Source: Burkholderiaceae bacterium
GTDB lineage: Bacteria > Pseudomonadota > Gammaproteobacteria > Burkholderiales > Burkholderiaceae_C
DNA: 33,441 bases
Assembly (NCBI GenBank): GCA_028685665.1
Contig: JAQUDN010000013.1
Coordinates: 1-33,441, forward strand
Direction of reading: 5' to 3'
Position 1 is the stretch's first letter. Each line of letters starts with the position of its first letter. The notes under the pieces were generated by a model that was not told the DNA's origin, made no database searches, and worked only from the letters and a program-made list of their open reading frames with translations. Shown piece by piece: positions 3,320-26,709 of the stretch. Made by a program: the position numbers and the translations under genes.

Positions 3320-3324
3320 CTCTC

Positions 3325-3765: not shown

Positions 3766-3791
3766 TTTTTTCTCGCTCGAAAGGCCTTTCG

Positions 3792-4241: not shown

Positions 4242-4660
4242 GGCCGTCCCGGCGCAGGCTCCAGAGGGGCTTGTCCTTGCTGGAGGTGCTGGTGGCGTTT
4301 GCCATCATGGCCATCGCCTTGGGCATGCTCTACAAAACCATGGGCAGCAGCGCGCGCAGCATCGGGGACGCCGGGCAGTACCAGCGTGCGGTGCTGGTCG
4401 CCGAGTCGTTGCTGGCGGCGCGCGATGCGGTGGCGCCCGAGGGCTGGAACGAGAGCGGGGAGTCGGCCGGCATGGGCTGGCAGGTGCGCACCGAACCCTA
4501 TCCCACAGCGGCCAGCCGGGCCAACCCCGACATGGTGCCGCTGCATGCCCTCTATATGACCGTGCAGTGGACCGAGCGGGGCTTGCAGCGCCAAGTGCAG
4601 TTGCAGACCCTGCGCCCGCAGCGCACCCGGCCGGCAGGCCCCCCGGGGGGGGCGCGATGA
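4238..4660 (+). CDS. gspI: T2SS minor pseudopilin GspI
   Basis: A 140-residue minor pseudopilin. The ORF track begins at 4199, but the ATG at 4238, inside the gspH stop, gives the expected leader MRPSRRRLQRG before the signal LSLLEVLVAFAIMAIALGML with Glu+5. GspI nucleates the I-J-K tip complex of the pseudopilus. The conserved region QYQRAVLVAESLLAAR after the helix is typical of GspI. The stop overlaps the gspJ start by 4 nt, so the two are coupled. Confidence 0.9.
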   Translation: MRPSRRRLQRGLSLLEVLVAFAIMAIALGMLYKTMGSSARSIGDAGQYQRAVLVAESLLAARDAVAPEGWNESGESAGMGWQVRTEPYPTAASRANPDMVPLHALYMTVQWTERGLQRQVQLQTLRPQRTRPAGPPGGAR

Positions 4661-6197: not shown

Positions 6198-6206
6198 ATA
6201 CTGACC

Positions 6207-7304
6207 ATGTCCTCCACTTCCCCATCCCCGCGGGCTTACCAGGTGGACCTGCGCGTCCTTTGGCAGGGCCTGCGCCAGTCTTTGAAGGGCTTGCCGGATT
6301 CGGCCTGCCTGTCCTGGCTCACGCCCGACCTTCCGGTGCGCGTGCACCACGCCCACGGAACCGAGGCCGTCTGGCGCGGCGGGCGGGCTCTTGGCGCCTT
6401 TCCCAAGCCGGTGGCTTTCGAGGCCTTGGAGATTCCGGACGATCTGCTGCTGCGGCGCACGCTGGCCATGCCCGATCTGGCCCCTGCGCAAATCGCCGAG
6501 GCCGTGGCCCTCGAAATCCACAGCGCCAGCCCCTTCGCGCCCGAAGACACCGTGGGCGGCTTTGCCTCCCGTGCGGCACCCGCTGGCGGGCTGCACATCG
6601 ACATCGTGCTGGCCTCGCGCAAGCAACTGAGCGCCTATGTCGAGGCCCAGCAGGCGCGCCTCAAGGTCCCGGCCACCGCCGAGGTCTGGGCTTTCAGCCC
6701 TGCGGGCGCCCCGGTGACCCTGCCGGGCTGGGGCGAAGCCCGCCGCACGGGGCAGGCCGTTCTGCGCCGCCGCCTGGGGTATGGCTTGCTGGCCAGCGCC
6801 CTGGCCCTGGCCTGCGCCATCGCCATCACCCCCACAGCCCAGTTGCGCCTGCGCGCCATCGAGGCGGTGTATGCCTATGACGATGTCTTTGCGCGCACCA
6901 AACCCCTGGTGGGCCAGCGCGAGGTGTTTGTCCGCACCGTCGAAGAGCTCGACACCGTGCGCGGCCTGCTGACCGAGCGCGCCGACCCCCTCAAGGTCCT
7001 GGAGCTCCTGACCAGGGTGCTGCCCGACGACACCTCGCTGCAAACCCTCCAGCTCCAGGGCCTGAAGGTCACCCTGCTGGGCTTGACGGCCAACGCCGCG
7101 GCGTTGATGCAGTTGCTGGGCTCCCAGGAAGGCATCAAGGACGTCAAAGCCCCTTCGGCCGCCACACGCAACCCGGGCGCGACCGCCGAAGTCTTCAATA
7201 TCGAGTTCCAGCTCGACCCTGCGGTGTACGGACTGGCCGTCGTGCCGGCGCCGGCCCCCGATCCGGCCGCTCCTGCCGAGCCTGCCCCGGCCCGTCCGCA
7301 ATAG
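6207..7304 (+). CDS. gspL: T2SS inner-membrane protein GspL
   Basis: GspL is a bitopic inner-membrane protein that links the GspE ATPase to the periplasmic platform. The 365-residue product has a cytoplasmic actin-like half (around 1-180), one transmembrane segment (LLASALALACAIAIT near 195), and a periplasmic PilN-like coiled/ferredoxin-fold half. The tail is Pro/Ala-rich (APAPDPAAPAEPAPA). The sequence is divergent from E. coli-type GspL, and the call rests partly on position between gspK and gspM. The same E-to-D gene order is known from the Xanthomonas xps operon, in which L follows K. Confidence 0.85.
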   Translation: MSSTSPSPRAYQVDLRVLWQGLRQSLKGLPDSACLSWLTPDLPVRVHHAHGTEAVWRGGRALGAFPKPVAFEALEIPDDLLLRRTLAMPDLAPAQIAEAVALEIHSASPFAPEDTVGGFASRAAPAGGLHIDIVLASRKQLSAYVEAQQARLKVPATAEVWAFSPAGAPVTLPGWGEARRTGQAVLRRRLGYGLLASALALACAIAITPTAQLRLRAIEAVYAYDDVFARTKPLVGQREVFVRTVEELDTVRGLLTERADPLKVLELLTRVLPDDTSLQTLQLQGLKVTLLGLTANAAALMQLLGSQEGIKDVKAPSAATRNPGATAEVFNIEFQLDPAVYGLAVVPAPAPDPAAPAEPAPARPQ

Positions 7305-7347
7305 GCCCCCACGGCATGCGCTCCGACTGCACCACCAAGCCCCCGCT

Positions 7348-7896
7348 ATGAGACTGACTTTTCCCAAAGAAACCGCTGCCGTGCTCCTGCTGGCCTGCGC
7401 CGTGGCGCTGCCGCTGGCCATCGGGGGCGTCTATGTCTACCAAAAACACCAGTGGGCCGAGGCCCGCATGGCCGAGCTGGCGCCCCGCCACGCCCGGCTG
7501 TTGGGCATCGAGGCCCAGCGCGACAACCTGGCCCAGGCCCAGGCCGCAGCCCAAGAGCGTCTGGCGCTGTATATCTACCCCGCCGACCAGGATGCCAATA
7601 CCACCGGCAACGAGGTCCAGCAGCGCGTGCGCAGCCTGCTGACCGCCGCAGGCCTGCAAATTGCCAGCAGCCAGGTGCTGCCGCTCAAGGAAGAAAAAAG
7701 TTTTGAACGCATTCCGCTCTCGGTGCGTGCCGAAGGCGAAATGCTCGCCGTGCAAGGCGCCCTGGCGGGTCTGGCAGAACAAAAACCGGCCATTCTGGTG
7801 GATGCCATGGTGGTCCAGGGCTACGGTGCCCCGGTCAACGGCGTGCAGCGCTTGTCCGTGCAGTTGAGCCTGTCGGTGTTGCGGAGCCGTTCATGA
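7348..7896 (+). CDS. gspM: T2SS inner-membrane protein GspM (T2SSM_b type)
   Basis: A 182-residue protein with one N-terminal transmembrane segment (AAVLLLACAVALPLAIGGVY), a coiled stretch (AQRDNLAQAQAAAQERL), and a periplasmic ferredoxin-like domain. This is the layout of GspM, which partners GspL in the inner-membrane platform. The sequence fits the divergent subfamily found in Xanthomonas- and Burkholderiales-type operons better than the classical GspM. A 43-nt gap separates it from gspL, and its stop overlaps gspN by 4 nt. Confidence 0.85.
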   Translation: MRLTFPKETAAVLLLACAVALPLAIGGVYVYQKHQWAEARMAELAPRHARLLGIEAQRDNLAQAQAAAQERLALYIYPADQDANTTGNEVQQRVRSLLTAAGLQIASSQVLPLKEEKSFERIPLSVRAEGEMLAVQGALAGLAEQKPAILVDAMVVQGYGAPVNGVQRLSVQLSLSVLRSRS

Positions 7897-8540
7897 AGCG
7901 CCACGCCATCGCCTTGTTGCTCGGACTGAACGGTGCCCTCGCGCTGGGCCTGGCGGCCCTGTGGATCGGGCCCGATGGGCAGGTGCAACACATCCACTGG
8001 ACCGCTCCCGAGCCGGTCAAGACCGACTACACCCAGATGCTGGTGCCCCTGCCCGAGCGCAGCCGGGTCGATACCAGCCGCTTCTTGGTGCTGCTCGAAC
8101 GCCCCTTGTTTGCCCAAACCCGCCGCCCACCCCCTCCGCCACCGCCGCCCGCGCCCCCTCCGCCGGTCGACACCCTGCGCACCGCCCGCCTGTTGGGGGT
8201 GCTGGAGTCGGGCCCCACGGGCACGGTGATCTTGAACCTGGACGGCAGAAACCGCCGCGTCCGCCTCAAAGAGGCCATCGAGGGCTGGACGCTGCAATCC
8301 ATCCAGGGGCGCAGCGCCACCTTCACCAACCGGGGCGAAACCCGCATGCTGCAATTGATGCGCGGCAACGTCTCGACTTACACCGGCCAGCCTTTGGCAC
8401 CCCCTCCGGCCCCTCCGCCTCCCGCGCCTGCGGCCAATGCCCCCCAGGCGGCTGCCCCCGCGGCCTCTGCCCCACCGCCTGCGCCGGCCCCTGCACCCGC
8501 TGCGGGCCGCAGAAGCCGCTTTTCCATGGGGCCAGGGTAG
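7893..8540 (+). CDS. gspN: T2SS GspN/GspC-like inner-membrane protein
   Basis: A 215-residue protein with an N-terminal transmembrane helix (AIALLLGLNGALALGLAALW), a Pro-rich linker (PPPPPPPPAPPPP) and a compact beta-rich domain (TARLLGVLESGPTGTVILNL) resembling the homology region of GspC/PilP. A second Pro/Ala-rich stretch forms the tail. In Xanthomonas-type operons the protein encoded between M and D (XpsN) is thought to take the place of GspC, linking the inner-membrane platform to the secretin. No separate gspC is seen in the window, which supports that role here. The RPLF motif before the linker is typical of the GspC homology region family. Confidence 0.8.
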   Translation: MKRHAIALLLGLNGALALGLAALWIGPDGQVQHIHWTAPEPVKTDYTQMLVPLPERSRVDTSRFLVLLERPLFAQTRRPPPPPPPPAPPPPVDTLRTARLLGVLESGPTGTVILNLDGRNRRVRLKEAIEGWTLQSIQGRSATFTNRGETRMLQLMRGNVSTYTGQPLAPPPAPPPPAPAANAPQAAAPAASAPPPAPAPAPAAGRRSRFSMGPG

Positions 8541-8587
8541 CGAGAAGCCTGCCTGGAGCCATCCTTTACCGCTTTCCTTTTGCTGCC

Positions 8588-10900
8588 ATGACACCCTATC
8601 GCCTGTCCCTGATCTTCGCGGCCCTCGCTGCAAGCCAGACCGTCCTTGCCCAGAACCCGCCGCCCCCGCCGACGCAAGCGCCCCCAACGGCCCCCGCAGC
8701 GGCTCCGGCGGCCGTAGCGGTGCCAGACGCCCCGTTCAAGACCGACTACGCCAAGCCCGAATCGGGCAAATTCGACCCCAGCGAGCCCCGCATCATCCGG
8801 GGCACCGACAAGGTCCTGGCCCCCGGCAAGACCGTGGCCCCGTTGGAAGGCCCGCCGATCGCCTTCAACTTCGAGGAAGCCCCCATTGCCGAGGTGGTTC
8901 GCACCATCCTGGGCGACATCCTGCGCGCCGACTTCGTGCTGCACCCCCCGCTGACCGGGGCCGTCACCCTGTCCACCCGCCAGCCCGTGCCGCCCGACCA
9001 GGCGGTCTTCCTGCTGGAAAGCGCCCTGTTTGCCAACGGCCTGGCCCTGGTCCGCGATGCGCGTGGCACCTACCACGTTGGCCGCCCCGACGCCCTCAAG
9101 CACCTGGGCGCCGCCCTGCGCCAGGCCAGCGCCGGCCCCTTGCCCCCGGGCTCGGGCGCCATCGTTGTGCCCCTGCAATACATTGGCGCCGCAGAAATGG
9201 CCACCATCCTGCGCCCCATGCTCCCGGGCGATGCCCTGGTCCGTGTGGACAACGTGCGCAACCTGCTGGTGCTGGCCGGCAACCGCACCCAGGCCGAAGC
9301 CTGGCTCGACCTGGTCGCCACCTTTGACGTGGACCTGCTCAAGGGCATGTCGGTGGGCGTGTTCCCGCTCAAGCACGCTTCGCTGAAAGAAGTCGAGGCC
9401 GCCCTGCGCCTGATGGGTCCGGGCGGGGCCACCACCGCACCGACCCCCGCCGCCGGAACTGCGCCGCAAACTCCCGGCGCCGCCCAGCCTGCCGCCCAGT
9501 TTTCCCTGTCAGAGTCCAATCCGCTGTTCGGTGCCTTGCGCATCCTGCCGATCGAGCGGCTCAACAGCATCCTGGTCGTCACCCCCCGGGCGGCCTACCT
9601 GGACGAGGCCCGCCGCTGGATCGAACGCCTGGACCGCCCCAGCGACAACAGCGCCGAACCCCAGCTGTTCGTGTATTCCGTGCAGAACGGCAACGCCCGC
9701 CATCTGGCCACCGTGCTCAGCGGCATTTTTGGCGATAGCCGCCAGCAGGCCACCGCCAGCTCCACCGGCGTGGCGCCCGGCCTGACCCAGGGCATCGCCT
9801 CCGCCGGGGGGCTCGGCGCCACCTCGTTCGCGGGCGCCACCGGCTCGACGGGGCTGGGCATCCGCTCGACCACCGCCCCCGCGTTCGGCGCGGCCACACG
9901 CCAGACCACGCCCGGCTCGCAAGCCCCGGTGGTGGCCACTTTGGGCAATCTGCGCGTCATGGCCGATGAAATCAACAACGCCGTGCTGGTCTGGGGCAGC
10001 CGCGTGGAATACAACAAGATCGAGGCCGCCCTCAAGCGCCTGGACCTGCCGCCCACCCAGGTGCTGATCGAGGCCAGCATCATCGAAGTCACCCTGAGCG
10101 ACGACCTCAAGTACGGCCTGGAATGGTCCTTCAGCGACAGCCGCAACACCACCGGCTATACCGGCACCGGGGTGCTCAGCGGGATTGCCGGCGGCGCCTT
10201 GAACACGCCAGCGGCCGGTTTCTCCTACAGCCTGCGCAATCCGCTCGGACAGGTGCGGGCCGTCTTGAACGCCCTGGCGCAAAAATCGCTGGTCAAGGTG
10301 ATCTCCAGCCCGTCCCTGATGGTGCTGGACAACCACACCGCCACCATCTCGGTCGGCAACCAGCAGCCTGTCAAGGCCGGCGAAACCACCAGCGCCGAAG
10401 GCACGGTGCGCTCCACGTCCATCCAGTACAAGGACACCGGGGTCAACTTGATGGTGACCCCCTCGGTCAACGCCGGCAACATCGTCACGATGCAGGTGGA
10501 CCAGACCGTGACCGACGTGGGCGCCATTGACGACGCCACCGGGCAGCGCGCGTTCCTGCAGCGCCAGATTGGCAGCAAAGTCGCGGTGCGCTCGGGCGAA
10601 ACCCTGGTGCTGGGGGGCTTGATTCGCGACAACGCCACCTCCGGTAAGTCGGGCGTGCCCTACCTGCAGGACGTGCCCGTGGTGGGGGGGCTGTTTGGCA
10701 CCAACACCGTGGTGGGGGCCCGCACCGAACTGCTGGTGGTGATCACGCCCCGCGTGGTGCGCTCCGACCAGGAAATGCGCGACGTCAGCGCCGAGCTGCG
10801 CGAACGCATGCGCGGCCTGTCGGTCGACCGCAAGCCCTTGCCGGTGACCGTGCCGGACACCGCCCCCTCGGCCGAGAAGCAACCATTTCAGTCCCAGTAA
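8588..10900 (+). CDS. gspD: T2SS outer-membrane secretin GspD
   Basis: GspD is the outer-membrane secretin forming the export gate. From the ATG at 8588 it is 770 residues; the listed ORF from 7961 is an extension through gspN. It has a signal peptide (cleavage likely after SQTVLA), a Pro/Ala-rich linker, N0-N3 periplasmic domains (IAFNFEEAPIAEVVRTILGD begins N0), and a secretin core. Core motifs include VLIEASIIEVTLSDDL, ISSPSLMVLDNHTATI, YKDTGVNLMVTPSVN and VPYLQDVPVVGGLFG. A Gly/Thr/Ala-rich insert around 390-440 falls in N3, where such variable loops occur. The C-terminus continues about 40 residues past ITPRVVRS, where an S-domain would bind a pilotin. Confidence 0.95.
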   Translation: MTPYRLSLIFAALAASQTVLAQNPPPPPTQAPPTAPAAAPAAVAVPDAPFKTDYAKPESGKFDPSEPRIIRGTDKVLAPGKTVAPLEGPPIAFNFEEAPIAEVVRTILGDILRADFVLHPPLTGAVTLSTRQPVPPDQAVFLLESALFANGLALVRDARGTYHVGRPDALKHLGAALRQASAGPLPPGSGAIVVPLQYIGAAEMATILRPMLPGDALVRVDNVRNLLVLAGNRTQAEAWLDLVATFDVDLLKGMSVGVFPLKHASLKEVEAALRLMGPGGATTAPTPAAGTAPQTPGAAQPAAQFSLSESNPLFGALRILPIERLNSILVVTPRAAYLDEARRWIERLDRPSDNSAEPQLFVYSVQNGNARHLATVLSGIFGDSRQQATASSTGVAPGLTQGIASAGGLGATSFAGATGSTGLGIRSTTAPAFGAATRQTTPGSQAPVVATLGNLRVMADEINNAVLVWGSRVEYNKIEAALKRLDLPPTQVLIEASIIEVTLSDDLKYGLEWSFSDSRNTTGYTGTGVLSGIAGGALNTPAAGFSYSLRNPLGQVRAVLNALAQKSLVKVISSPSLMVLDNHTATISVGNQQPVKAGETTSAEGTVRSTSIQYKDTGVNLMVTPSVNAGNIVTMQVDQTVTDVGAIDDATGQRAFLQRQIGSKVAVRSGETLVLGGLIRDNATSGKSGVPYLQDVPVVGGLFGTNTVVGARTELLVVITPRVVRSDQEMRDVSAELRERMRGLSVDRKPLPVTVPDTAPSAEKQPFQSQ

Positions 10901-12788: not shown

Positions 12789-12790
12789 GG

Positions 12791-13093: not shown

Positions 13094-13099
13094 GCGCTT

Positions 13100-13215: not shown

Positions 13216-14127
13216 TCAGTGCGCAGTGGGTGGGGGCCCAAAGAAGCGTGGGGCTTCGCCCCAGAAATGCCAGGCGGCGCTGTCTTGTGCCAGAAGTGTT
13301 TCCAGGTGCTGGAAAACGGCCGGGACCAGCGTGTCCAGGCTGTCGTGCAGGCCCAGGGGGCGCACGTGCAAAAAGCGTTGGCCCGTGTGGGTGTCCAGGC
13401 CCGTCCAGTACACCGTGACCGGAATCTTTTGTTCCACGGCCAGGCGCAGCAGGGCTTTGGGCACCTGGGTTGCCATGCCTGCGATCACCACGGGCACGCT
13501 GGCCGCTACCTGGTCTGAGGGCACATCCACGGCCGCCATGACCTGTTGCCCCTGGCGCAGCGCACGCAGGGCCGGGCGCAGGCTGGCGGACACGTCCAGG
13601 GGGGCGTGGGCCAGGGCCTGCTCCACCTGCCGCGTCCGGGCTTTGACATAGCGGTGCAAGACCGGGCGGCCGGCAAAATGCGCGCCCTCCATCGCCGCCA
13701 CCAGGGCGTGTGCCTGCAGGCCACTGCGGCGCGCATGGCGCAAGCCCCACATGCCGGCACCCCAGTGGAAGGTGCAAAAAATACCGGCTTGGTCGCCCGC
13801 AGGCCAGGTGCCCTGTACCGCCAGGTGGCGGCGCATCCAGGCATCCGAGCGGGTCAGGGCCAAATACAGATCGGCGTGGTCCACCAGGGTCACCAGGCGG
13901 CGCCGGGCCAGCCAGGCGGGCGCTTCGGCCTCGGTGCATTGACCGCGCAAACGGGCCTCGCGCAACGCGGCATGGCAGGGCGCGCGGTACAGCCAGTCCC
14001 AGCGTGCCAGGCGCTTGAACACGGCAAAGCACACGCGCCAGGGCAGCACCGCGGCCAGGCCGGGCAGCAGCACCAGTTCCAGGGCATCGCGGACATGGGT
14101 TTTCCAGTGGCGCAAGAGGTTCAGCAT
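13216..14127 (-). CDS. LpxL/HtrB-like lysophospholipid acyltransferase family protein
   Basis: A 303-residue protein starting at the ATG at 14127 (the listed ORF extends to 14226 through a repeat). It resembles the LpxL/HtrB late acyltransferases that add a secondary acyl chain to lipid A: an N-terminal hydrophobic part (LVLLPGLAAVLPWRVCFAVF), a catalytic region (FCTFHWGAGMWGLRHARRSG) and a C-terminal half ending SAAWHFWGEAPRFF. The family active site is H-x4-D/E. Here His121 is followed by WGAG and then Met126, so the acidic residue is not in the expected place. Either the register differs or the protein is a divergent or inactive relative. It sits between TA modules; a link to the envelope genes downstream is inference. 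Confidence 0.6.
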   Translation of the reverse strand: MLNLLRHWKTHVRDALELVLLPGLAAVLPWRVCFAVFKRLARWDWLYRAPCHAALREARLRGQCTEAEAPAWLARRRLVTLVDHADLYLALTRSDAWMRRHLAVQGTWPAGDQAGIFCTFHWGAGMWGLRHARRSGLQAHALVAAMEGAHFAGRPVLHRYVKARTRQVEQALAHAPLDVSASLRPALRALRQGQQVMAAVDVPSDQVAASVPVVIAGMATQVPKALLRLAVEQKIPVTVYWTGLDTHTGQRFLHVRPLGLHDSLDTLVPAVFQHLETLLAQDSAAWHFWGEAPRFFGPPPTAH

Positions 14128-14159
14128 CCGGGGTCCAAGGGGATTTGATGACTCATATT

Positions 14160-14206
14160 TTGATAGCTGGTAGCGCTTTATTCTATTGGGCTGGAGGCCA
14201 ATTTGA
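14160..14206 (+). repeat. Intergenic repeat, copy 3
   Basis: Reads TGATAGCTGGTAGCGCTTTA and ends TGGAGGCCAATTTGA. It carries the full family scaffold (AGCT, AGCGCTT, GGGCTGGAG, CC, TTTGA). It lies between the acyltransferase start and the hipB stop (3 nt from the latter). Confidence 0.65.
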
Positions 14207-14209
14207 GGC

Positions 14210-14521
14210 TTAAACCCCTTGGCCATCTTCCGGCGGTGCAGGGTGCTTGGGGCCCACGGTCAGTTTCAGGCCCAGGATGCCCAGTACCCGGTTCATTGTC
14301 TGCACCGTGCCCTCGCTGCGCTCCTGCTCAATGTCTTGCAGGGTGCGAGTTCCCACCCCCGCAAAGTGCGCCATCTCCGCCGTGGTCAGGCGCATGGTTT
14401 TCTTCAGGTGGCGGATGGCCTGGGGCAGCGTCCATTCGGGGTGGGCCAGCACCTCCTCGATGGCCTGTTTGCGCAGGCGCACCTGCTCGACCACTGACAG
14501 GGTTTTGTAGCGTTTGTCCAC
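14210..14521 (-). CDS. hipB: HipB-like XRE antitoxin of the reversed hipAB pair
   Basis: A 103-residue protein with a basic N-terminal helix region (1-35) and a HTH domain around 36-90 (LKKTMRLTTAEMAHFAGVGT, then RTLQDIEQERSEGTVQTMNR). This is the XRE/HipB type of antitoxin. It is the second gene of a pair: hipA ends at 14528, so the gap is 6 nt. The usual order is hipB first, so here antitoxin synthesis depends on reading through the toxin gene. The recognition helix is not closely similar to the other HipB-like protein in the window, so cross-talk between the two is not obvious. Confidence 0.75.
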   Translation of the reverse strand: MDKRYKTLSVVEQVRLRKQAIEEVLAHPEWTLPQAIRHLKKTMRLTTAEMAHFAGVGTRTLQDIEQERSEGTVQTMNRVLGILGLKLTVGPKHPAPPEDGQGV

Positions 14522-14527
14522 AGGGGG

Positions 14528-16655: not shown

Positions 16656-16733
16656 GTGTGAATTATGCCCAAGTGGATATAAAACTGCCCCGATTCGTGG
16701 GGGCGTCAAGCCGCTGGCAGCGCTTTGCCCCAA

Positions 16734-18026
16734 TCACTCCCACCGGTGGGGCAAGCGGAGCAGGCCCGGGGTGCTGCGCGGGTCCACATGCCTAAAGTTG
16801 GCGCAGTGCAGCCACTGGTCATACACCACCAGCCCTTGCCGATCAAACAGGTAGGCGCTGACGACGTACTCGCCCGAATGCAGCGGCAGATCGGTGAAGC
16901 GCAGGCGGGCTCGCCACAGGCCGGCGCCCAGGGGGGTGGGGGCAACGCCATCCTGCAAGGTGCCTGCGGTGGTGATGCCCGGGCCATGGGCCTGTTCCAG
17001 CATGATCCCCACATGGGGGCATTCCTCGCCCAGGCCTTGGGCGGTGACGGTGATCACCAGGTCTTTGGCACCCAGCAGAGGAGCTTGTTCCGGCGCGCCC
17101 GCCTCCAGGTCGGCCAGTTCCACGGACACAATGCCTGCGAGGGTGCTGGCCGGCAAGGGCGGTGCAGCGGGGGGCTCTGCGGCCTCTGCCAAAGTGCCTG
17201 CGCCTGTCTCGTCGGTGCGGGGCTCGGCGTTCGCAGGGGAGGGGGCCGCGGCCAGGGCGGTGTGTTTGTCTGCCAGGTCTTGTGCGCGCACATGGGCTTC
17301 GTAAGACGCCAGCACGCTCTCGGTCTCGCCAAAGGCCCGTTGCTGGCCTTGGTCGAGCCACAGCACCACATCGCACAGCTGGCGCACATGGTAGAGGCTG
17401 TGGGAGCAAAACAGGATCGTGCAGCCGTTGCGCCGAAAGGCGTCAATGCGTTCGACGCATTTCTTCTGAAAATGCTGGTCGCCCACCGCCAGGGCTTCAT
17501 CAATGATCAGCAGATCGGGCTCAATGGCCGTGACCAGCGCGAAGGCCAGGCGCACCGCCATCCCGGAAGAATAGGTCTTGACCGGCCGGTCCAGCGCATC
17601 GCCCAGTTCGGAGAACGCAATGATCTCCGGTTCGAGTTGCGCCATCTGCTCGGCCGAAATCCCGATCAGGCTCCCGCCGAAGTAGAGGTTCTGCCGCCCC
17701 GTGAAATCCGGATGGAATCCCGCACCCAATTCCAGAATGGCCGTCACCCGGCCCGAGCGTTGCACGCTGCCCGTCGAGGGCTGCATGGTGCCGGCCAGCA
17801 ACTTGAGCAGCGAGCTTTTTCCGGCGCCGTTGTTGCCCACCACGCCCAGGCAGGCGCCGCGCGGCAGGCTGAATGACACATCGCGCAAGGCCCAGTGGCT
17901 GCGGTGGGTGGGGCGGCCCGTCAGCAGCGCTTTCAGGCGCTGGCGTGGCGAGGCGTAGAGCTTGTATTCCTTGCCCAGGTGCGACACGGTCACCGTGGGG
18001 CTTGGGGTAGGGGCCAGAGCGGTCAT
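16734..18026 (-). CDS. wzt: Polysaccharide ABC exporter ATPase (Wzt-like) with C-terminal domain
   Basis: The nucleotide-binding subunit of an O-antigen/capsule-type ABC exporter. From the ATG at 18026 it has 430 residues. The ABC domain covers about 1-250: Walker A GNNGAGKSS, signature YSSGMAVRLAFA, Walker B DLLIIDEALAVGD and the switch His (FCSHS). An Ala/Pro-rich linker (about 270-315) precedes a C-terminal beta-sandwich-like domain of about 120 residues (SVELADLEAGAPEQAPLLGA to RHVDPRST). Such Wzt C-terminal domains bind the modified end of the finished glycan before export. The start overlaps the wzm stop by 4 nt. The upstream extension in the ORF track is artefactual. Confidence 0.9.
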   Translation of the reverse strand: MTALAPTPSPTVTVSHLGKEYKLYASPRQRLKALLTGRPTHRSHWALRDVSFSLPRGACLGVVGNNGAGKSSLLKLLAGTMQPSTGSVQRSGRVTAILELGAGFHPDFTGRQNLYFGGSLIGISAEQMAQLEPEIIAFSELGDALDRPVKTYSSGMAVRLAFALVTAIEPDLLIIDEALAVGDQHFQKKCVERIDAFRRNGCTILFCSHSLYHVRQLCDVVLWLDQGQQRAFGETESVLASYEAHVRAQDLADKHTALAAAPSPANAEPRTDETGAGTLAEAAEPPAAPPLPASTLAGIVSVELADLEAGAPEQAPLLGAKDLVITVTAQGLGEECPHVGIMLEQAHGPGITTAGTLQDGVAPTPLGAGLWRARLRFTDLPLHSGEYVVSAYLFDRQGLVVYDQWLHCANFRHVDPRSTPGLLRLPHRWE

Positions 18027-18817
18027 AGCCAATCTACCAGTTGATCGCGGCTGCGGCGCAGCAAGACATCCAGTAGCACCGCGCCCGTTGCCAGCCAGGC
18101 CAGCGCACCCACCCAGACGGGCCAGGCCGGCCAGGCGCCCTGCAGCAGCAGGGCCTGGTAGCCGCTGACCCAGGCCGTCATGGGGTTGAGCCACAGCACC
18201 CAGCGCCAGGCGGCGGGGAACATCTCCATGGGAAACAGCACGGGCGAGGCAAAAATGCCCAAAGCCAGGGCAAAGCTGACCAGTTGAACCGTGTCGCGCA
18301 GTGCCGCCGCCAGCACCGCCAGGGCGGTGCCCCACAGCATGCACAGCAGCCACTGCAGCAGCAGCAGGACGGGCAAGGCGACCAGGGCCCCGGAAAAGTG
18401 GTGCTGAGGCGCATAGGCCAGAATCAGCAGCAGCATCAGGGGCGCAAACACCAGGCCGCTGGCCAGCACCGCCCGCACGGGAAACAGCAGGGGCGGCAAC
18501 GCGTTCTTTTGCAGCACCCCACCGGCCTCCACCAGGCTGCCCATGCCCCGGGTGAGGGCGTCGGCAAAGGCCATCCAGGGGAGCATGCCCACGATCAAAT
18601 AGGCGCCCACGGCCTTGGTGGGCGCGCCTTCACCCAGGCGCATGGCAAACACCACATCGAACACCAGGTAGTAGGCGGCCATGGTGAGCAGGGGCTGCAC
18701 ATAGGCCCAGGCCACGCCCATGGCGGTGCCCGCATAGCGGGCCGAAATATCGCGGCGGGTGAGCACCCAACACAGGGCGCGAGAACGCCAGAGGGTTTGG
18801 ACTTCGTGCCAGAGCAT
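18023..18817 (-). CDS. wzm: Polysaccharide ABC exporter permease (Wzm-like)
   Basis: The membrane subunit of the same exporter, an ABC-2 type permease of 264 residues when started at the ATG at 18817 (MLWHEVQTLWRSRALCWVLT). It has an amphipathic N-terminus (RRDISARYAGTAMGVAWAYV is the typical Wzm entry motif) and about six hydrophobic segments, including MLLLILAYAP and LLLLQWLLCMLWGTALAVLA. NPMTAWVSGYQALLLQG near the end is another family motif. The track extends the frame to 18919 through a low-complexity stretch. Co-transcribed with wzt. Confidence 0.9.
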   Translation of the reverse strand: MLWHEVQTLWRSRALCWVLTRRDISARYAGTAMGVAWAYVQPLLTMAAYYLVFDVVFAMRLGEGAPTKAVGAYLIVGMLPWMAFADALTRGMGSLVEAGGVLQKNALPPLLFPVRAVLASGLVFAPLMLLLILAYAPQHHFSGALVALPVLLLLQWLLCMLWGTALAVLAAALRDTVQLVSFALALGIFASPVLFPMEMFPAAWRWVLWLNPMTAWVSGYQALLLQGAWPAWPVWVGALAWLATGAVLLDVLLRRSRDQLVDWL

Positions 18818-18930
18818 GGGGCGGGCGGGGCGTGAACCACAAAGAAAAAAACCCGCCATCCCCACAAGACAGGGCGACGGGGCGGCGGTGGGGTGCCCAA
18901 GGCAATCCCCGCCCGCCATGGCGCGCGGGT

Positions 18931-19878
18931 TTACTGCGCGGGCTTGTTGCCAGCCGCTTTGGACTGTTCTGCGATGAAGGCTTGGAGGGCTGTGTCATTG
19001 CCCTTGGCCAGGCCTTGCAGGCGGTCGATTTCCTTCATGCGCACATTCTGCTGGGCCTTGCCACTGGCTTCGGCACGCAGCTGGTCTCGCACTTCTTCAA
19101 ACGGCTTCACGCCGGCAGGCTTGCGTTCTTCGAGGCGAATGATGTGCAAGCCAAAATCGCTTTGCACAATACCGCTGAGTTGTCCGGGCTGCTGCAGGGT
19201 GTCGATGGCCTCGTCAAAAGCCTTGACCATGCGGCCCTTGGCAAAAAAGCCCAGGTCTCCACCCTTGGCGGCGCTGCCGGGGTCGGCGGACTCTTTCTTC
19301 GCCAGTTCTTCAAAGTTGGCACCGGCTTTCAGGTCGGCCAGGATTTTTTCGGCCTTGGCGCGGGCTTCGGCATCGCTGCCGCGCACCAGAATGTGGCGAG
19401 CGCGGGTCTGGGCGGGTTGTTCAAAGCGCTGGACCTCGGCCTTGTAGATGGTTTGGGCCAGTTTGTCGGTGGCTGGGTCATCGGCCTGCAGAGCGCTTTT
19501 GGCAATGTCCACCACGCGGGCTTCGGCCAGGATGGCTTCTTGCTGGGTTTTGAGCAAGGCCACCACGTCGGCGCGCTTGTCCATGCCTTTTTGGACAGCC
19601 TCTGCGGCCAGTGCGCGGCGCAGGTAGAGGTTGCTGATCAGCTGGCGCAGCATATCGGGCTGGCCCAGCACGCGGGTGCGCACATCGGCGGGCATGCGGT
19701 CGAGCTCGGCTTGCACATCGCTGCGCAGCACCTTGACGCCGGCGCCTTCCAGCAGCGCTTCGTTCTTGGTTTGGCTCAGGGCCGGGGTACAGGCCAGTGC
19801 GGTGGCCAGGGCCAGGCTGGCGGTCAAGGGCGACAAGGCGACACGGGCGAAGCGAAAGGAGGTGTGCGTGTTCAACAT
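18931..19878 (-). CDS. Periplasmic parvulin-type peptidyl-prolyl isomerase
   Basis: A 315-residue exported protein. The N-terminus has a signal peptide (LTASLALATALACTPALSQ; a Cys lies in it but not in a good lipobox). A SurA/PrsA-like helical region follows (about 40-155), then a parvulin domain (TRARHILVRGSDAEARAKAE, about 158-177, with FEELAKKESADPGSAAKGGD and LGFFAKGRMVKAFDEA) and a helical tail. It probably assists folding of periplasmic or outer-membrane proteins. It lies downstream of the S-layer-like gene on the same strand and beyond its terminator, so it is probably on another transcript. A chaperone role for the surface protein is plausible but only by position. Confidence 0.9.
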   Translation of the reverse strand: MLNTHTSFRFARVALSPLTASLALATALACTPALSQTKNEALLEGAGVKVLRSDVQAELDRMPADVRTRVLGQPDMLRQLISNLYLRRALAAEAVQKGMDKRADVVALLKTQQEAILAEARVVDIAKSALQADDPATDKLAQTIYKAEVQRFEQPAQTRARHILVRGSDAEARAKAEKILADLKAGANFEELAKKESADPGSAAKGGDLGFFAKGRMVKAFDEAIDTLQQPGQLSGIVQSDFGLHIIRLEERKPAGVKPFEEVRDQLRAEASGKAQQNVRMKEIDRLQGLAKGNDTALQAFIAEQSKAAGNKPAQ

Positions 19879-19942: not shown

Positions 19943-19973
19943 AAAAAAGGCGGGGATTGCTCCCCGCCTTTTT
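19943..19973 (-). terminator. Strong terminator after the S-layer-like gene
   Basis: AAAAAGGCGGGGA and TCCCCGCCTTTTT form an 8-bp GC-rich stem with a 4-nt loop, flanked by A and T runs on both sides, so it can act in both directions. It lies 23 nt beyond the stop of the surface-protein gene. A strong terminator fits a highly transcribed gene. Confidence 0.9.
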
Positions 19974-19996: not shown

Positions 19997-21682
19997 TTAG
20001 TTGTAACGGTGAGCCCAGGCACCGCCCAGGTTAGCACCGCGGGTCTTGGCAGCAGCGAAGCCGATGACTGGCAGACCGTTGTTCACACCAGGGCGAACTG
20101 CATTGGCCAGACCAGGCGTGGTGATACGGAACCAGCCGTCAGCGTACGATGTGTTGATCGTTTGTTGGGCCAGCGAAGCACTCAGAACAGCGGATGTTGC
20201 GTTGTTGAAGGACAGCACAGACACTTCACCGCACAGGTTCACAGCAGAGCCAGGAGAAACCACGAAGGTTGTCTTGGTGTTTTCTTCGCGGTCAAAACCA
20301 CGCAGGCTGTTTGTAGACACACAGATACGGTTGCGATCTTCCGACAGGAAGACGTTGCCGTTTGCGCCAGCGCGATAGTTCGCAGCGGAGTTAATCTCTG
20401 GAGTAGTAGCTGTAGCAGCCACGAAGAAATCGGTGGTCATTGCATCGTTCGAAATGATCGAAACGTTGGTGCGAGTGAAGCCAGCGACCAAGTTGGTAGC
20501 ACCTGCGTTGTAGTCCATTGCAACTGCATAACGACGTGTGGGCATGGAGAACACCCAGTCAGTTGCGAAGTTGACAGCACTGTTAGTCAGGAATTCGTTG
20601 GTTACAGCTTGCACGCTCAAAGTGCTTGCCAGCAGTTTGGCTTGCTCAGCTGGTGCAGAAGAACCAGCAGGAATACCAACGCGGTTCAGCGCATAAGGTG
20701 TAGACAGGTCTGGGAAGTCATAGCTTGCAGCACGGACAACACCACCAGCCAACAGCGGATCAGCAGTCAACTGGATTGCTTGTTGCTGAGCCAGATCGGC
20801 ACTAGTTTGGGGGGACCAAACCAAGTTGGCTTGTGCGTTACGGGTAACACCACCAGTAGCGTTAATGGCCAAGGCTTCAATGGCAACTGCTTCACCGGAG
20901 ACGGATGCGCTGTCAGCCAGATTGACGATGGTCCAGTTAGCGAACAAACCGCCGGTAGGCCAGCTATAACCGCGAACCAGAGGGTCGTTTGCCGAACCAG
21001 CCACGTTCGACAGAGCGTTTTCTTGACGATCCATCTGAGCAGACGAGCAAGGAGCAACACCGTTCACGTGCTTGATGGCGTTGTACAAAGAACCCGTAGT
21101 CAGGTTGACAGGAATGTCAGCCATGTTCAGGATTTCGATGTAGCCTTCACGGGTTTCGTTCTTGGCATTAGCGCCTTGACGAACGCGAAGTGTCTTGAAC
21201 TTGCCACCGTCAGCTTTGATGTCTGCAGCGCTTGGCAGTGTGCAGCTCTTGTCATCGGTCACCAGACGCGAAACGCCATCTGCATCGACGGCCACGTTAG
21301 CTGTCCACATGTCACCAGGCGACAGGTAGATGGTGATGTCGAACAAGTCGTCGGAGTTCGAAGCACCGCGATAGCGCAGCTTCACTGCCTTACCGTTGTT
21401 CAGGTCGGTGTTGACGATGTTCAGCAGGGATGCGTTGCTGGATTGGGTCGTGAAGTAAGGCACGAACAGGATGTGACCTGTGCCATCAGTGTTGATTTGC
21501 AGGTCATTTGCTTGGCGAGCAACAGCAGCGGCTGGCAGGCTACCAAATGCAGCGTTGCTGTAAGCCAGACGGCCGCCAACAGCAGTGATGTCAACAGTGT
21601 TTGCCACAACTTGTGCGTTAGCACCGCCAGCGATGCCACCAACCATGGCAGCAATGCTCAATGCAAGAAGATTTTTCTTCAT
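19997..21682 (-). CDS. Secreted S-layer-like surface protein, probably abundant
   Basis: A 561-residue protein starting at 21682 (GGAG 7 nt upstream; the ORF track begins 13 codons earlier). It has a classical signal peptide (MKKNLLALSIAAMVGGIAGG then ANA|Q) and a mature part rich in Ala, Asn, Thr, Ser and Val, with only four Cys. The C-terminus ends AWAHRYN. I recognise it as the type of large secreted surface protein found in Comamonadaceae; NpdA, the S-layer protein of Delftia nanopods, is a possible relative, but I cannot confirm that. The gene is AT-richer and uses a narrower codon set than its neighbours, a sign of very high expression or a distinct origin. Function otherwise unknown. 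Confidence 0.7.
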   Translation of the reverse strand: MKKNLLALSIAAMVGGIAGGANAQVVANTVDITAVGGRLAYSNAAFGSLPAAAVARQANDLQINTDGTGHILFVPYFTTQSSNASLLNIVNTDLNNGKAVKLRYRGASNSDDLFDITIYLSPGDMWTANVAVDADGVSRLVTDDKSCTLPSAADIKADGGKFKTLRVRQGANAKNETREGYIEILNMADIPVNLTTGSLYNAIKHVNGVAPCSSAQMDRQENALSNVAGSANDPLVRGYSWPTGGLFANWTIVNLADSASVSGEAVAIEALAINATGGVTRNAQANLVWSPQTSADLAQQQAIQLTADPLLAGGVVRAASYDFPDLSTPYALNRVGIPAGSSAPAEQAKLLASTLSVQAVTNEFLTNSAVNFATDWVFSMPTRRYAVAMDYNAGATNLVAGFTRTNVSIISNDAMTTDFFVAATATTPEINSAANYRAGANGNVFLSEDRNRICVSTNSLRGFDREENTKTTFVVSPGSAVNLCGEVSVLSFNNATSAVLSASLAQQTINTSYADGWFRITTPGLANAVRPGVNNGLPVIGFAAAKTRGANLGGAWAHRYN

Positions 21683-21782
21683 GTAGGAACTCCAGTTAAA
21701 AATTGAAAGCGCAACTACCAAGATTGATTACGCTCTTTGATGGTAGCACAGGCCTACGGGCCCACCGTGCCCGCGCCCCCCA

Positions 21783-21970: not shown

Positions 21971-24900
21971 TTAACGCCGGTGCCCGAGCAGCCAGTTCTT
22001 GACCTGCCGCTGCCAGTGGGCCGGAATGGACCGCGCCACGGTGCGCAGGCCGGGCGCGCTGCGCAGGCGCACCAGCAGGCTGACCAGTCCCTGGCGCCGG
22101 GAGGCCGAGGGCTGTGGAGCCGGTATCCAGGCGGCCAACTCCAGTGCGCGAGGGGCGTTGGCGGTGGGCAGCGCGTGCAGTCCGTGTGCGTAGTCTTGTG
22201 CGTAGTTCCAGGGACCGATGCGTGCATCTTCCGGCGTGCCGGGCGCTGTTTGGGGGGGCGTGGGTGCCGAGGCAAGGGGGTCTGTGACCGCAAAATGCTG
22301 CGCACGCAGGGCGGTGAACCACTCGACCCATTGGGCGGCAGGCGTGTTCCAGGCGTGCACCCAGCTCCAGGGGCGCCCGGCCAGCCGTTCGGCAAAAGCG
22401 CCCAGGTCGGGGGCCACGATGGGCAGTCCTGCCTGCAGACAGGCGCTCAGGGTGTAACTGTAGGTTTCGGGCCATTGGGCTGGAAACCACACCACATCGG
22501 GCTGCAGCCATTCGAGCAAGCTGGGCAGGTCTTCGTCTTTGTATTGGCCGTGCACGGTCAGGCGCGCGCGCGGCGGGCCTTGGAGGTGGCGGTAGCCGTA
22601 GCCGATCAGGTGAAACTCCAGCGGGACCTTGCGGCGTGCGGCTTCTTGGGCCGCGTCTTCCAGCAGGTCCGCACCCTTGATGGTGCTGAGGGCTCCGATC
22701 ACAGCGATCTTGAGGGGCGCTCCCTGCGCCAGGGGGCGGGGTGTGGGCGTGGGCAGCGCGGCGGGGTCCGGCAGGTCGGTGTGCGGCGCCAGGCGGATGT
22801 CGGCTTGGGGTGCAAAGCGGGCCATGCGGCGGGCGGCATCCCGGCTGGGGACCAGCACATGGCGGGCACCCTGGACGAAGGGTTCGTGGTTGCTGCGCCA
22901 GGTTTCGATGGTCACGCCGCCCGGGGCGGGCGATTTGCGCAGGCATTGGCGGCATTGGTCCAGGCCTTTTTCTCCGCAATAGGCCTGGGTGTGGTCGGTC
23001 AGGGAGATTTGGGGGCAGTAACTGTAGTAGTCGTGTGCGGTGAAGTCGTAGGTCACGCCCAGGCGCGCGGGCAGTTGGCGCACGGCTTCGCTGTGGCCCA
23101 GCAAGTGGTGGTAATGGATATGCTGCACGCCCAAGGTGCGCAGCAGTTGGACCAGGCGTTCTTCCTGTGCCGGCAGTTCAAAGCGCAGTTGCAGGGCTTC
23201 TTGTGCGCCGGGCAGGCCCAGGTGCACGGCCCCGTCGCCTGCGGGGGTCAGTTGCAGAAATCGGGCATGGTCTTTCAGGTGCGAGGCCAGTTCATGGGCA
23301 TGGCGCACGGTGCCGCCCGCGCGGTCATGCAGCACGGCCAGCACGACCGGCAGATGGGCTGCTTGCACGCGGGCCAGGTCCAGTGCCATGCGCCAGGGTT
23401 TGGCGGGGTCGGCTTGGACGAACTGGTGGACTGCGGTTTCGTACGACGGGTGCAGTCGGCGCAGGGTTTCCATGGCGGCGAGTTCGCGCGGGCTTTTGCT
23501 GTCGCCAAAGCTGACGCCGCCGGTGTGCAGCACGAAGGTGTCGAGCGCGTGCAGATTGCGCCACCCTGCGTTGGCGGCGCGCTGGCAGAAGTCGTTTTCT
23601 TCGCCATAGCCTTTGCCGAAGTGCTCGGTGTCAAACAGGCCGACATCGGCCAGGCAGTCGCGGCGGATGTACATGCAAAAGCCTACCCCGGTGGGCACAT
23701 CGACGACAGCCCCCGGGTTGGTGCGTGCACACAGGGCGTCGAGCTGCGCAGTGTCCATGCCCAGGGGCAGGTCGTTGTCCTGGCAAAAGCGCGGGTAGCT
23801 GCAAATGGTGGCGTTGTTCGAGAAGGGGGTGACCGAGGCCACGCGCCGGTCGCTGTAGGCGGCCCGCTGGATGCGGTCGAGCCAGTCGTTGGCGACTTCG
23901 GTGTCGCTGTTCAGGAGGAGTACGTCGTGGCGATCGCTCAGGGCCATGCCGCGGTTGACGGTGCCCACAAAGCCGAGGTTGGTCTCGTTTTCCAGCAAGG
24001 TGATGCGCGGGTCTTCATCCGCCTTCGCGCGCAGCCAGGCGGTGACTTCCGGTTCCGGGCTGGCGTCGTTGATGACGACCAGGCGCCAGGGGGTCTTGCA
24101 GGGGCTGGCCAGTACCGATTCGATGCACTGCCGGGTGTCTCCGAGGCCCCGGTACACAGGGACGATGATGTCCACGGGCTCTGGGGATGCGGGCATGGCG
24201 TGCCGCAGGGGCGTGTGGGGGGATGCAGCCCCTTGCCGCGTGCGGCCCAGCTGCCGGTCGATCCACATCTTGGTGTGCACCAGGGGGCGTGTGGCGCGGA
24301 ACACGGTCGAGTTTTCAATGCCTTGCAGGTGATCGATCAAATTCTGGCGTTCGCGCTGGGCCGTACTGAGTTGGCTGTGCAGCAGCTGTTGTTGTTGCTG
24401 CAACTGGCTGTTGTGCGTCGCTGTTTTTTCCTGGGCCTGTTGTGAACGCTCTATTAAGAGATGGGCTTGCTCCAGCTGGACCTTGGCTTGCTGCAGCTGG
24501 GCTTGTCCCCGGACCTGGATCTGGTTCCGTTCCAGGCAGCTTTGTTCTAACTCGAAGTCTTTCTGTTGGAGTGCTTGAGCCAAGTTTTGGGCCTTCTCGT
24601 ACAGTGGGCCGACCGTCTGCTCAAGAGCGAGGTAGTCGGCCGACATGGGCCAGCCCACCATGATGTCCAGCTGGGCGCCTGGGGTTTGCATGCTCTGGCG
24701 GAGCACGTCGGGGGGAATGGGCAATTCGAACCAGGGATCGTCGCCTGCCAGCAAGAGCAGGGCGCAGTCGGATGCGGTGGGCAGGGGGGGGCGCCACAGA
24801 ATCTGCTGGTGTGCCGTGTTTTCAAGGGCTTGGACGCTGTCGGTGGCGGCGTCCCATTGCCATGGCACCTGGCCTTGGGCGTCGCGCAGGAGCAGGCGGT

Positions 24901-25840
24901 GCAGGTGCAAAAAGCCGGGGCGGTCGGCGGGGTCCAGTCGCAGCCGGGGGGCTTCTGTGCCGAGCAGGCAGGGCAATTCGAAGCGCAGCACTTGGCGGTG
25001 CTGGCCTATGACACCGGCTTGGGACAGTTTGTGGTCTTCGCTGAAGCCTTCGTTCGTGCCGACGTAGAGCTGGGCGGTGAAGAGGGCCTGGGCGGGCTCC
25101 CTCGGTGTGGTGGGAGCGCCTGTTTCCACGGGGGCGTTTCCTGCCGCCTGCCGGGGCCGTGCGCTGCCAATGAACTGGTAGGTCAGGGCGTCTGGAACGG
25201 CCAGGAGGTAGCGTGACACGGCCGGGGGCAGGTGGTCAAAAGCGATCTTGAATTCGGACTCGGGCAGTTCCCGGCGGATGGTGTCGAGCGGCGCGAGGTC
25301 CCAGTCTTGCTCCGCCATGAACCGGGCGAGCGAGCGGCGCGTGAAAAAGCGCAGGTGGGTGCGGTCGAGCAGGCCTTCGTCACGGTAGCGGAATTCCCCG
25401 TGCAGCAGTTCCGCCAGCAGCCCGCAGTAGGCTGCGTTGGGTACCGAGATCAGCAGTTGCCCCCTGGGGGCGAGCAAAGTGCGGCAGGCGGCCAGGATTT
25501 TTTCGGGTTGGCGCAGGTGTTCGAGCACGTCGGCACAGACGATGGCATCGTATCGCTGCCCGGCAAACAAGGCGGGCAGGTCCACTTGTTCCAGATCGGC
25601 GATTTCGACCCTGCGGTAGTGGCACCGGGCATGTTCGGCTTCGGCGGGGCTCCAGGTGACGCCGTCTGCGATGCACTGGCGGGTGTTTTTCAGGAACGCA
25701 CCCAAGGCGCCACTGCCACAGCCCAGGTCGAGCAAGGTGGAGCCGGGATCGATCAGGTGGGCCAATACGGAGAGGGAAGTTCTTTCGTGGGCCTGGATGT
25801 TGCGCAGATACACATGCAGCGCCTCTTTGGATTGCGTCAT
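21971..25840 (-). CDS. Multidomain methyltransferase / coiled coil / GT2 / GT4 fusion
   Basis: A 1289-residue protein with at least four parts. (1) A class I SAM-dependent methyltransferase at about 1-200, with LLDLGCGSG at 36-44. (2) A spacer region of about 240-400 with beta-rich sequence. (3) A Gln/Glu/Leu-rich coiled coil at about 405-512. (4) A GT2 domain at about 555-790 with VDIIVPVYRG, LLLNSDTEV and GYGEENDF. (5) A GT4-like domain at about 860-1210, with KIAVIGALSTIKG near 1045 and a sugar-nucleotide segment near 1130 (PETYSYTLSACLQAGLPIVA). It probably assembles and may cap a surface glycan. The order differs from WbdD but shares the methyltransferase plus coiled-coil idea. It is divergent from the next gene, 86 nt apart. 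Confidence 0.85.
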   Translation of the reverse strand: MTQSKEALHVYLRNIQAHERTSLSVLAHLIDPGSTLLDLGCGSGALGAFLKNTRQCIADGVTWSPAEAEHARCHYRRVEIADLEQVDLPALFAGQRYDAIVCADVLEHLRQPEKILAACRTLLAPRGQLLISVPNAAYCGLLAELLHGEFRYRDEGLLDRTHLRFFTRRSLARFMAEQDWDLAPLDTIRRELPESEFKIAFDHLPPAVSRYLLAVPDALTYQFIGSARPRQAAGNAPVETGAPTTPREPAQALFTAQLYVGTNEGFSEDHKLSQAGVIGQHRQVLRFELPCLLGTEAPRLRLDPADRPGFLHLHRLLLRDAQGQVPWQWDAATDSVQALENTAHQQILWRPPLPTASDCALLLLAGDDPWFELPIPPDVLRQSMQTPGAQLDIMVGWPMSADYLALEQTVGPLYEKAQNLAQALQQKDFELEQSCLERNQIQVRGQAQLQQAKVQLEQAHLLIERSQQAQEKTATHNSQLQQQQQLLHSQLSTAQRERQNLIDHLQGIENSTVFRATRPLVHTKMWIDRQLGRTRQGAASPHTPLRHAMPASPEPVDIIVPVYRGLGDTRQCIESVLASPCKTPWRLVVINDASPEPEVTAWLRAKADEDPRITLLENETNLGFVGTVNRGMALSDRHDVLLLNSDTEVANDWLDRIQRAAYSDRRVASVTPFSNNATICSYPRFCQDNDLPLGMDTAQLDALCARTNPGAVVDVPTGVGFCMYIRRDCLADVGLFDTEHFGKGYGEENDFCQRAANAGWRNLHALDTFVLHTGGVSFGDSKSPRELAAMETLRRLHPSYETAVHQFVQADPAKPWRMALDLARVQAAHLPVVLAVLHDRAGGTVRHAHELASHLKDHARFLQLTPAGDGAVHLGLPGAQEALQLRFELPAQEERLVQLLRTLGVQHIHYHHLLGHSEAVRQLPARLGVTYDFTAHDYYSYCPQISLTDHTQAYCGEKGLDQCRQCLRKSPAPGGVTIETWRSNHEPFVQGARHVLVPSRDAARRMARFAPQADIRLAPHTDLPDPAALPTPTPRPLAQGAPLKIAVIGALSTIKGADLLEDAAQEAARRKVPLEFHLIGYGYRHLQGPPRARLTVHGQYKDEDLPSLLEWLQPDVVWFPAQWPETYSYTLSACLQAGLPIVAPDLGAFAERLAGRPWSWVHAWNTPAAQWVEWFTALRAQHFAVTDPLASAPTPPQTAPGTPEDARIGPWNYAQDYAHGLHALPTANAPRALELAAWIPAPQPSASRRQGLVSLLVRLRSAPGLRTVARSIPAHWQRQVKNWLLGHRR

Positions 25841-25926
25841 TCCGGAATTATGACAACGCTGGCGCGGTCCTCCGTGGACCGTCTGTCAGGGGCACGGGGG
25901 CTCAGGGCTGTAACAATAGTGCTCTC
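25841..25926. promoter_or_regulatory. Divergent promoter region between the GT fusion and GT2
   Basis: This 86-nt gap separates two divergent glycan genes. It holds a 6-bp hairpin (CGGTCC at 25865-25870 with GGACCG at 25876-25881) and, on the plus strand, TAACAATAG about 10 nt before the GT2 start, a plausible -10. No good -35 box is visible for either direction. Confidence 0.35.
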
Positions 25927-26709
25927 ATGACACTCTCTTCCCTTGCTGCACCGGGCGCGGTGGTCTCTGTGGTCAGCCATGGCCATGGGCTGCTGGTTCA
26001 GGCCTTGCTGGCCGATCTGGCGCGCTGGAGTGCGGCCTCGGTGCGGCGTGTCGTGCTGACGCAGAACCTCCCCGAGCCCGAGCCTGTCCCTCCGCCGGGC
26101 GGCTGGCCTTTTGTCTTGACCCTGATCAAAAACCCACGCCCCTGTGGGTTTGGTGCCAACCACAACCGGGCGTTGGCGGGAGCGACCGAGCCGGTGGTCT
26201 GCGTGATCAACCCCGATGTGGCCCTGGTGCCGGGACGTGATCCCTTTGCCGCCTTGGTCCAGGCGGCTTTGCAGCCCGGTGTGGGTTGCGCTTACCCCGA
26301 GCAACTGGACGCGCAGGGCGTCCCCCAGGACTGCGAGCGCGAGTTGCCGACGCCCACGGCTTTGTGGCGGCGCCATGCGCGGTGCGCTGCCGAAACCCGG
26401 GTCGACTGGGTCAACGCCGCGTGCATCGCACTGCCCGTGGCGGTGTGGCAGCAACTGGGCGGGTTCGACGAAACCTATTTCATGTACTGCGAGGATGTCG
26501 ATCTCTGCCTGCGCCTGCGGCTGCAGGGCTGGGCTTTGCAGCGCGCACCTGTGCAAGTAGTGCATGCGGGCCAGCGGGCCAGCCACCAGCACTGGCGCCA
26601 TCTGCGCTGGCATGTCCGCAGCCTGTTCCATTTGTGGCGCTCCCCGGTGTATGCACAGGCCCGGCGCCTCTTGCTGCGCAGCGACGCGGGTACCATCGGC
26701 GCCTCATGA
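25927..26709 (+). CDS. GT2-family glycosyltransferase
   Basis: A 260-residue glycosyltransferase of the GT2 (rhamnosyltransferase-like) kind. It has a short N-terminal Rossmann-type part (VVSVVSHGHG), a sugar-nucleotide binding stretch (NPRPCGFGANHNRALAGA), a D-x-D-like motif (CVINPDVALV) and the C-terminal acceptor segment WQQLGGFDETYFMYCEDVDL with the ED motif. It would transfer a sugar to a lipid-linked acceptor in the cytoplasm. The stop overlaps the next gene by 4 nt. The substrate cannot be told from sequence. Confidence 0.85.
   Translation: MTLSSLAAPGAVVSVVSHGHGLLVQALLADLARWSAASVRRVVLTQNLPEPEPVPPPGGWPFVLTLIKNPRPCGFGANHNRALAGATEPVVCVINPDVALVPGRDPFAALVQAALQPGVGCAYPEQLDAQGVPQDCERELPTPTALWRRHARCAAETRVDWVNAACIALPVAVWQQLGGFDETYFMYCEDVDLCLRLRLQGWALQRAPVQVVHAGQRASHQHWRHLRWHVRSLFHLWRSPVYAQARRLLLRSDAGTIGAS

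Follow-up and report, generated by a model that had tools for sequence, protein, structure and literature searches.

A probable NpdA-type S-layer gene, its conserved leader and its neighbourhood in a Comamonadaceae bacterium related to Simplicispira

The gene at positions 19997-21682 of the window (the whole stretch of 33,441 nucleotides that we analyzed) very probably encodes an NpdA-type S-layer subunit of a Comamonadaceae bacterium of soil or water related to Simplicispira, judged from its homologs and its setting. The first-pass annotation had suggested an S-layer or NpdA protein; homology and neighbourhood bear this out and place the product in the NpdA S-layer family, which now extends to another lineage. 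The gene and its export signal are as follows.

19997..21682, minus strand: npdA-type S-layer protein gene, 561 aa, ATG start, intact frame (from homology and alignment)
21614..21682, minus strand: signal peptide, codons 1-23, MKKNLLALSIAAMVGGIAGGANA (judged by eye; highly conserved)

Family membership and the predicted protein

In the published accounts, Delftia (strain Cs1-4), Paracidovorax citrulli (strain AAC00-1) and further Comamonadaceae have NpdA as their S-layer protein; the P. citrulli and Delftia members form an S-layer where tested, and an SDS-resistant oligomer of high apparent mass is reported for both (PMC3110197, PMC10765051). The second source also includes Simplicispira psychrophila, with S-layers seen by cryo-EM, in its list of npdA carriers, and describes a Simplicispira arrangement in which the T2SS (gsp) genes lie downstream of npdA on the opposite strand (PMC10765051). 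Of 401 Comamonadaceae genomes, 53 carry npdA homologs; those of full length are about 39-62% identical to the window protein in the best segment. The best named relative is the sole npdA-like gene of S. psychrophila DSM 11588 (57-65% identical, in a match spanning residues 1-561, with 57% in the best segment and 62-63% in alignments). The homolog of Comamonas odontotermitis, another organism on the published list, is 38.5% identical and annotated as 'cell surface protein'. Tested for further traits of the family, the window protein has a signal peptide (recognized by eye) and no conserved domain, and its gene is linked to a T2SS, with gsp genes at 6-10900, downstream and on the opposite strand, as published for Simplicispira. 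The NpdA assignment rests on the listed organisms, the spread of the family and synteny, rather than on direct alignment with the reference sequences WP_011797163 or Delftia NpdA. In the host genome (a fragmented assembly, about 88% complete) npdA is single copy. One homolog, L100, was tried as the P. citrulli NpdA and set aside: taken with a 25-aa signal peptide its mass is 52,399 Da, only a near match to the published mature 52,394 Da.

The signal peptide is among the best-kept stretches of the protein (majority residue 0.75 over residues 1-23, compared with 0.15-0.71 in mature segments). Four cysteines (147, 212, 454 and 484), present in almost every linked ortholog, and a large number of Asp/Asn positions are near invariant in the ortholog alignment, and the C terminus is conserved, with a WxHR(F/Y)-like end. 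AlphaFold2, run on an alignment from which one plasmid-collection sequence had been left out, gave a mostly beta model (mean pLDDT 83, pTM 0.89). Searches of Pfam, NCBIfam and PDB sequences with the 561-aa protein returned no relative, and a fold search with the model against the PDB and viral models returned nothing at E<=0.001; the only resemblances, to jellyroll or galectin-like beta-sandwiches, were weak and we do not interpret them.

A variant of the S-layer assignment, compatible with it, is that the protein builds just one of two stacked S-layers. S. psychrophila has two S-layers, an inner NpdA-like one and an outer one apparently made of another protein (PMC10765051), but a single npdA-like gene, so that its second layer is probably another protein. 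No candidate for a second subunit was found within the window, and we regard the two-layer variant as unlikely. In another genome (G360), the main npdA has close to it a further long open frame (L096:10192-12777) whose similarity to NpdA is about 44%; it is a possible candidate for a second S-layer protein.

The conserved module, leader and terminator

Glycan-export, PPIase and T2SS genes had been pointed out around npdA. These neighbours are real, and across relatives they form a conserved module consisting of the T2SS, npdA, the PPIase, the Wzm/Wzt O-antigen exporter and a methyltransferase-glycosyltransferase. The features of the locus outside the npdA frame are listed below.

6..10900, plus strand: T2SS cluster (gspE, F, G, pseudopilins, L/PilN, M region, D), downstream of npdA
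13216..14226, minus strand: gene without a known family, kept behind wzt at loci of the Simplicispira type (68% identity to the L031 copy)
16734..18020, minus strand: Wzt-type ATPase with a Wzt_C carbohydrate-binding domain, start approximate
18023..18919, minus strand: Wzm-type ABC-2 membrane subunit of a polysaccharide exporter (domain search, synteny)
18931..19878, minus strand: PpiC/parvulin-type peptidyl-prolyl isomerase, conserved beside npdA (domain search, synteny)
19944..19973, minus strand: intrinsic terminator after npdA, perfect 13-bp stem and U-tract, in the npdA-PPIase gap
21680..21739, minus strand: conserved 5' leader of ~60 nt (model R1, 62 positions), ending at the start codon
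21690..21693, minus strand: Shine-Dalgarno GGAG (leader comparison)
21708..21734, minus strand: predicted 5'-proximal leader hairpin, arms 21727-21734 and 21708-21715, AGCGUAAU/GUUGCGCU
21740..21745, minus strand: probable extended -10 element TGTGC-TACCAT, position conserved across orthologs (ortholog comparison)
21971..25840, minus strand: methyltransferase-GT2-GT4 protein, 1289 aa, probably for O-chain polymerisation or capping
25837..26631, minus strand: unknown gene; about 43% identical partners adjoin the methyltransferase-glycosyltransferase gene in several loci

GspD lies close to npdA at 44 loci, of which 42 hold the PPIase, 39 Wzm/Wzt and 32 the methyltransferase-glycosyltransferase, counted within the stretch examined at each locus; several of these stretches end at contig ends. 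A search of 61 relatives for the methyltransferase-glycosyltransferase protein (E<=1e-100) found it in six of the seven genomes that carry the npdA leader and in one of the 54 others. The main text of PMC10765051 makes no mention of the linkage to PPIase, Wzm/Wzt or methyltransferase-glycosyltransferase genes; its supplementary figures may already draw the module. In C. odontotermitis the whole module lies on one 373-kb replicon filed as a plasmid (L042, NZ_CP083452.1), so that its genes may be mobile together.

In the window the interval from gspD to wzt (11596-16733) contains three toxin-antitoxin sets: MqsRA at 12387-13093, a HipA-like set at 14528-15871 and an HTH/Gp49 pair at 15979-16733. 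In S. psychrophila the corresponding interval is only short. Further afield, the small Campylobacterota plasmid pNitYY0826_PLS of Nitratiruptor (L158) encodes, near PPIase and prepilin-type genes, a protein weakly related to residues 51-190 of NpdA, a hint of a wider association of SLP, PPIase and T2SS genes.

The suggestion of a possible structured leader was followed up by folding and by comparison. The 291-nt region upstream of npdA folds better than its shuffles (z -2.4; four of 200 shuffles did equally well), and comparison with relatives delimits the conserved leader of ~60 nt. Upstream of the linked orthologs we found a -10-like TGTGCTANNAT, followed by GCGTAATCAATCKTGGTAGTTGCGCTTACCAACTTTTTAACTGGAGT; no -35 was found, and a sigma-70 consensus scan of the npdA upstream region gave no canonical promoter. 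In the alignment of the proposed leader hairpin 87.4% of cells are paired, a value that none of 500 shuffles reached and that compares with 28-54% for slid partners; double (compensatory) changes are few. RNAalifold on the raw, unrefined leader alignment gave no consensus fold, and an Rfam search with the leader matched no family. The Shine-Dalgarno sequence is predicted in many orthologs to pair with an upstream AACUU, weakly in the window. Mean pairing in orthologs was 0.83, compared with 0.75 in shuffles (P 0.01), and 0.51 against 0.63 in the window's own sequence; sequestration is tentative because it is not favoured there.

Model R1 found one site in each of seven genomes among the 61 relatives, all at npdA. 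At the loci of unlinked paralogs it gave no site at E<=0.01 and one marginal site at 0.09. Its match in G036 lay near no homolog then known; it sits at a contig end and opens a new npdA reading frame, while the matching C-terminal part of npdA, with PPIase, Wzm and Wzt behind it, lies at the start of a different contig, so that the module-linked npdA of this genome is split. Two contigs of the same genome begin with the same npdA 3' end (L153:1-298 and L154:1-298, 99% identical over 298 bp), with the PPIase after one only, a pattern suggesting that the S-layer gene was recently recombined or duplicated.

The strong terminator noted downstream of the gene is likewise present, with its perfect stem and U-tract, and perfect-stem terminators follow 48 of 51 linked npdA genes. 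Together, the leader, the -10-like element and the terminator predict that npdA mRNA is short and abundant and that few transcripts run on into the PPIase and exporter genes. Neither leader nor terminator is mentioned in the accessible text of PMC10765051, and the leader is the freshest part of our findings.

Codon use, base composition and paralogs

The first-pass annotation had described npdA as AT-richer than its flanking genes and as using fewer codon types, and had proposed a check against ribosomal protein genes. The base composition is as described: GC is 0.542 and GC3 0.56 in npdA, compared with GC 0.63-0.70 and GC3 0.73-0.89 in neighbouring window genes. The claim about codon types fails as a raw count, since npdA uses 49 codons and most neighbours 44-59, but stands relative to base composition: the effective number of codons is 37.6, inside the neighbour range, whereas ~59.7 is expected from the GC3 of the gene. 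Compared with a reference of 10 ribosomal protein genes of the same genome (rplB, rpsS, rplV, rpsC, rplP, rpsQ, rplL, rplJ, rplA and rplK), relative codon use of npdA correlated with r=0.85, against 0.57 with the neighbours; the annotation had named the opposite, a codon use differing from that of ribosomal protein genes, as pointing to transferred DNA, and it is not seen. The log-odds of a ribosomal over a neighbour codon model was +303 bits; 1000 simulations of the npdA protein from neighbour codons reached a maximum of -69 bits. Of the 561 codons of npdA, a single one (0.2%) belongs to the eleven that ribosomal genes avoid; the share of these codons is 0.3% in ribosomal genes, 4.3% in neighbours and 4-13% in the small AT-rich genes located at 11.6-16.7 kb, for the most part toxin-antitoxin genes. 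In the log-odds and avoided-codon tests the rpoB row and the ORF at 31483-33372, which is probably not coding, were corrected or omitted. The other AT-rich stretches of the window, at about 11.8-13.2 and 15.8-16.8 kb, contain toxin-antitoxin genes with the opposite codon signature.

The same bias recurs in relatives. Beyond base composition, codon bias exceeded the neighbour mean in 49 of the 51 module-linked npdA genes with measurable neighbours; in 43 it also lay above the neighbour maximum. Linked npdA genes had a median codon gap of 0.32, and 24 unlinked ones 0.11, a difference whose P of about 1e-9 is overstated because sequences of related genomes are not independent, while its direction is consistent. 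Tandem or scattered npdA paralogs (L048, L131, L132, L049-L052 and L055, with several in G019 and G036) are without the leader, T2SS linkage and strong codon bias, and are possibly silent or variant S-layer copies. Leader, codon bias, terminator and module are thus marks by which the main S-layer gene can be told from paralogs in draft genomes.

Codon bias of this kind reflects selection for expression, not function, and an abundant surface protein that forms no lattice would look alike. The protein could be an abundant secreted T2SS substrate or an adhesin of the NpdA family, a reading that draws on the assignment of function from homology only and on the expanded paralogs of G036 and G019, which imply that not every family member need be an S-layer subunit. 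We consider this very improbable. The window gene is single-copy, module-linked and codon-optimised, unlike those paralogs; the P. citrulli and Delftia members tested form an S-layer, and one-copy S. psychrophila has an NpdA-like layer (PMC10765051, PMC3110197). Recent transfer of an AT-rich gene with the base and codon use of a foreign donor is scarcely tenable: a GC of 0.54 in a locus of about 0.65, and nearby toxin-antitoxin genes that suggest uptake of AT-rich DNA, would favour it, but the codon preferences are those of host ribosomal genes, with rare codons at 0.2% and not the 4-13% of the toxin-antitoxin genes, most linked orthologs show the same deviation despite different genome GC, and synteny is kept across the family. 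We reject horizontal transfer as an explanation of the AT bias on the grounds of codon use, with the toxin-antitoxin genes of the window as a contrast. Since codon use is ribosomal-like and the avoided codons are almost absent, AT richness of npdA is linked to expression and is no foreign signature. We conclude that the odd base composition most likely marks extreme expression, abundance being read here from codons, and not foreign DNA.

Proposed working and comparison with known systems

For an S-layer subunit, the locus suggests the following course. A strong promoter would yield a short mRNA with the conserved hairpin first and the strong terminator last, an order that is observed at the level of the elements; npdA would then be transcribed highly and largely apart from the downstream PPIase, wzm and wzt. 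The observed ribosomal-protein-like codons would support very high translation. The signal peptide would take the chain across the inner membrane, where the neighbouring parvulin and two probable disulfides may aid folding. The T2SS at 6-10900 is the putative exporter, by linkage; a second GspG gene lies on another contig of the host genome, so that another T2SS could serve the npdA protein. The lattice would be held on O-polysaccharide, for whose synthesis and export the adjoining methyltransferase-glycosyltransferase and Wzm/Wzt would be responsible; assembly of the S-layer protein of Delftia Cs1-4 is LPS-dependent (PMC3110197). The recurrent link between an S-layer gene, a T2SS and an ABC-exported O-polysaccharide makes export and anchoring of NpdA testable by single-gene deletions.

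More speculatively, the leader may be an undescribed cis-acting RNA common to Comamonadaceae S-layer genes, with a hairpin and, in many species, a sequestered ribosome-binding site, present only at the main module-linked locus, also where a genome has many npdA paralogs, and setting or sensing S-layer synthesis; leaderless paralogs would then be silent or minor copies, swappable into the expression site. We hold this proposal as a tentative one, with the odds somewhat against it. In practical terms, the leader might be used to drive strong expression or as a handle on S-layer regulation.

Compared with the described NpdA family, the window protein is alike in size class, signal peptide, lack of a known domain, T2SS linkage and organism group. 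The gene resembles family members as a main copy that appears strongly expressed, and its S. psychrophila ortholog has the matching gsp arrangement. A similar layout is known outside the family: the A-layer locus of Aeromonas salmonicida holds vapA, the sps T2SS and wzm/wzt together, and its layer is tethered by LPS (PMC4483657). Both loci thus combine an S-layer gene with the genes for a T2SS and for an O-antigen exporter of the ABC-2 type, but in A. salmonicida the S-layer genes sit between wzm and wzt. The likeness is one of locus layout, and neither profile nor fold searches matched NpdA to a PDB chain. For the leader, the nearest parallel is that of E. coli ompA, in which a 5'-terminal hairpin stabilises the mRNA of an abundant envelope protein. 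The npdA leader likewise has a predicted hairpin near the 5' end of an mRNA that would encode an abundant envelope protein, but differs from the ompA type in having no Rfam match and in a conserved loop and ribosome-binding-site context that are specific to npdA.
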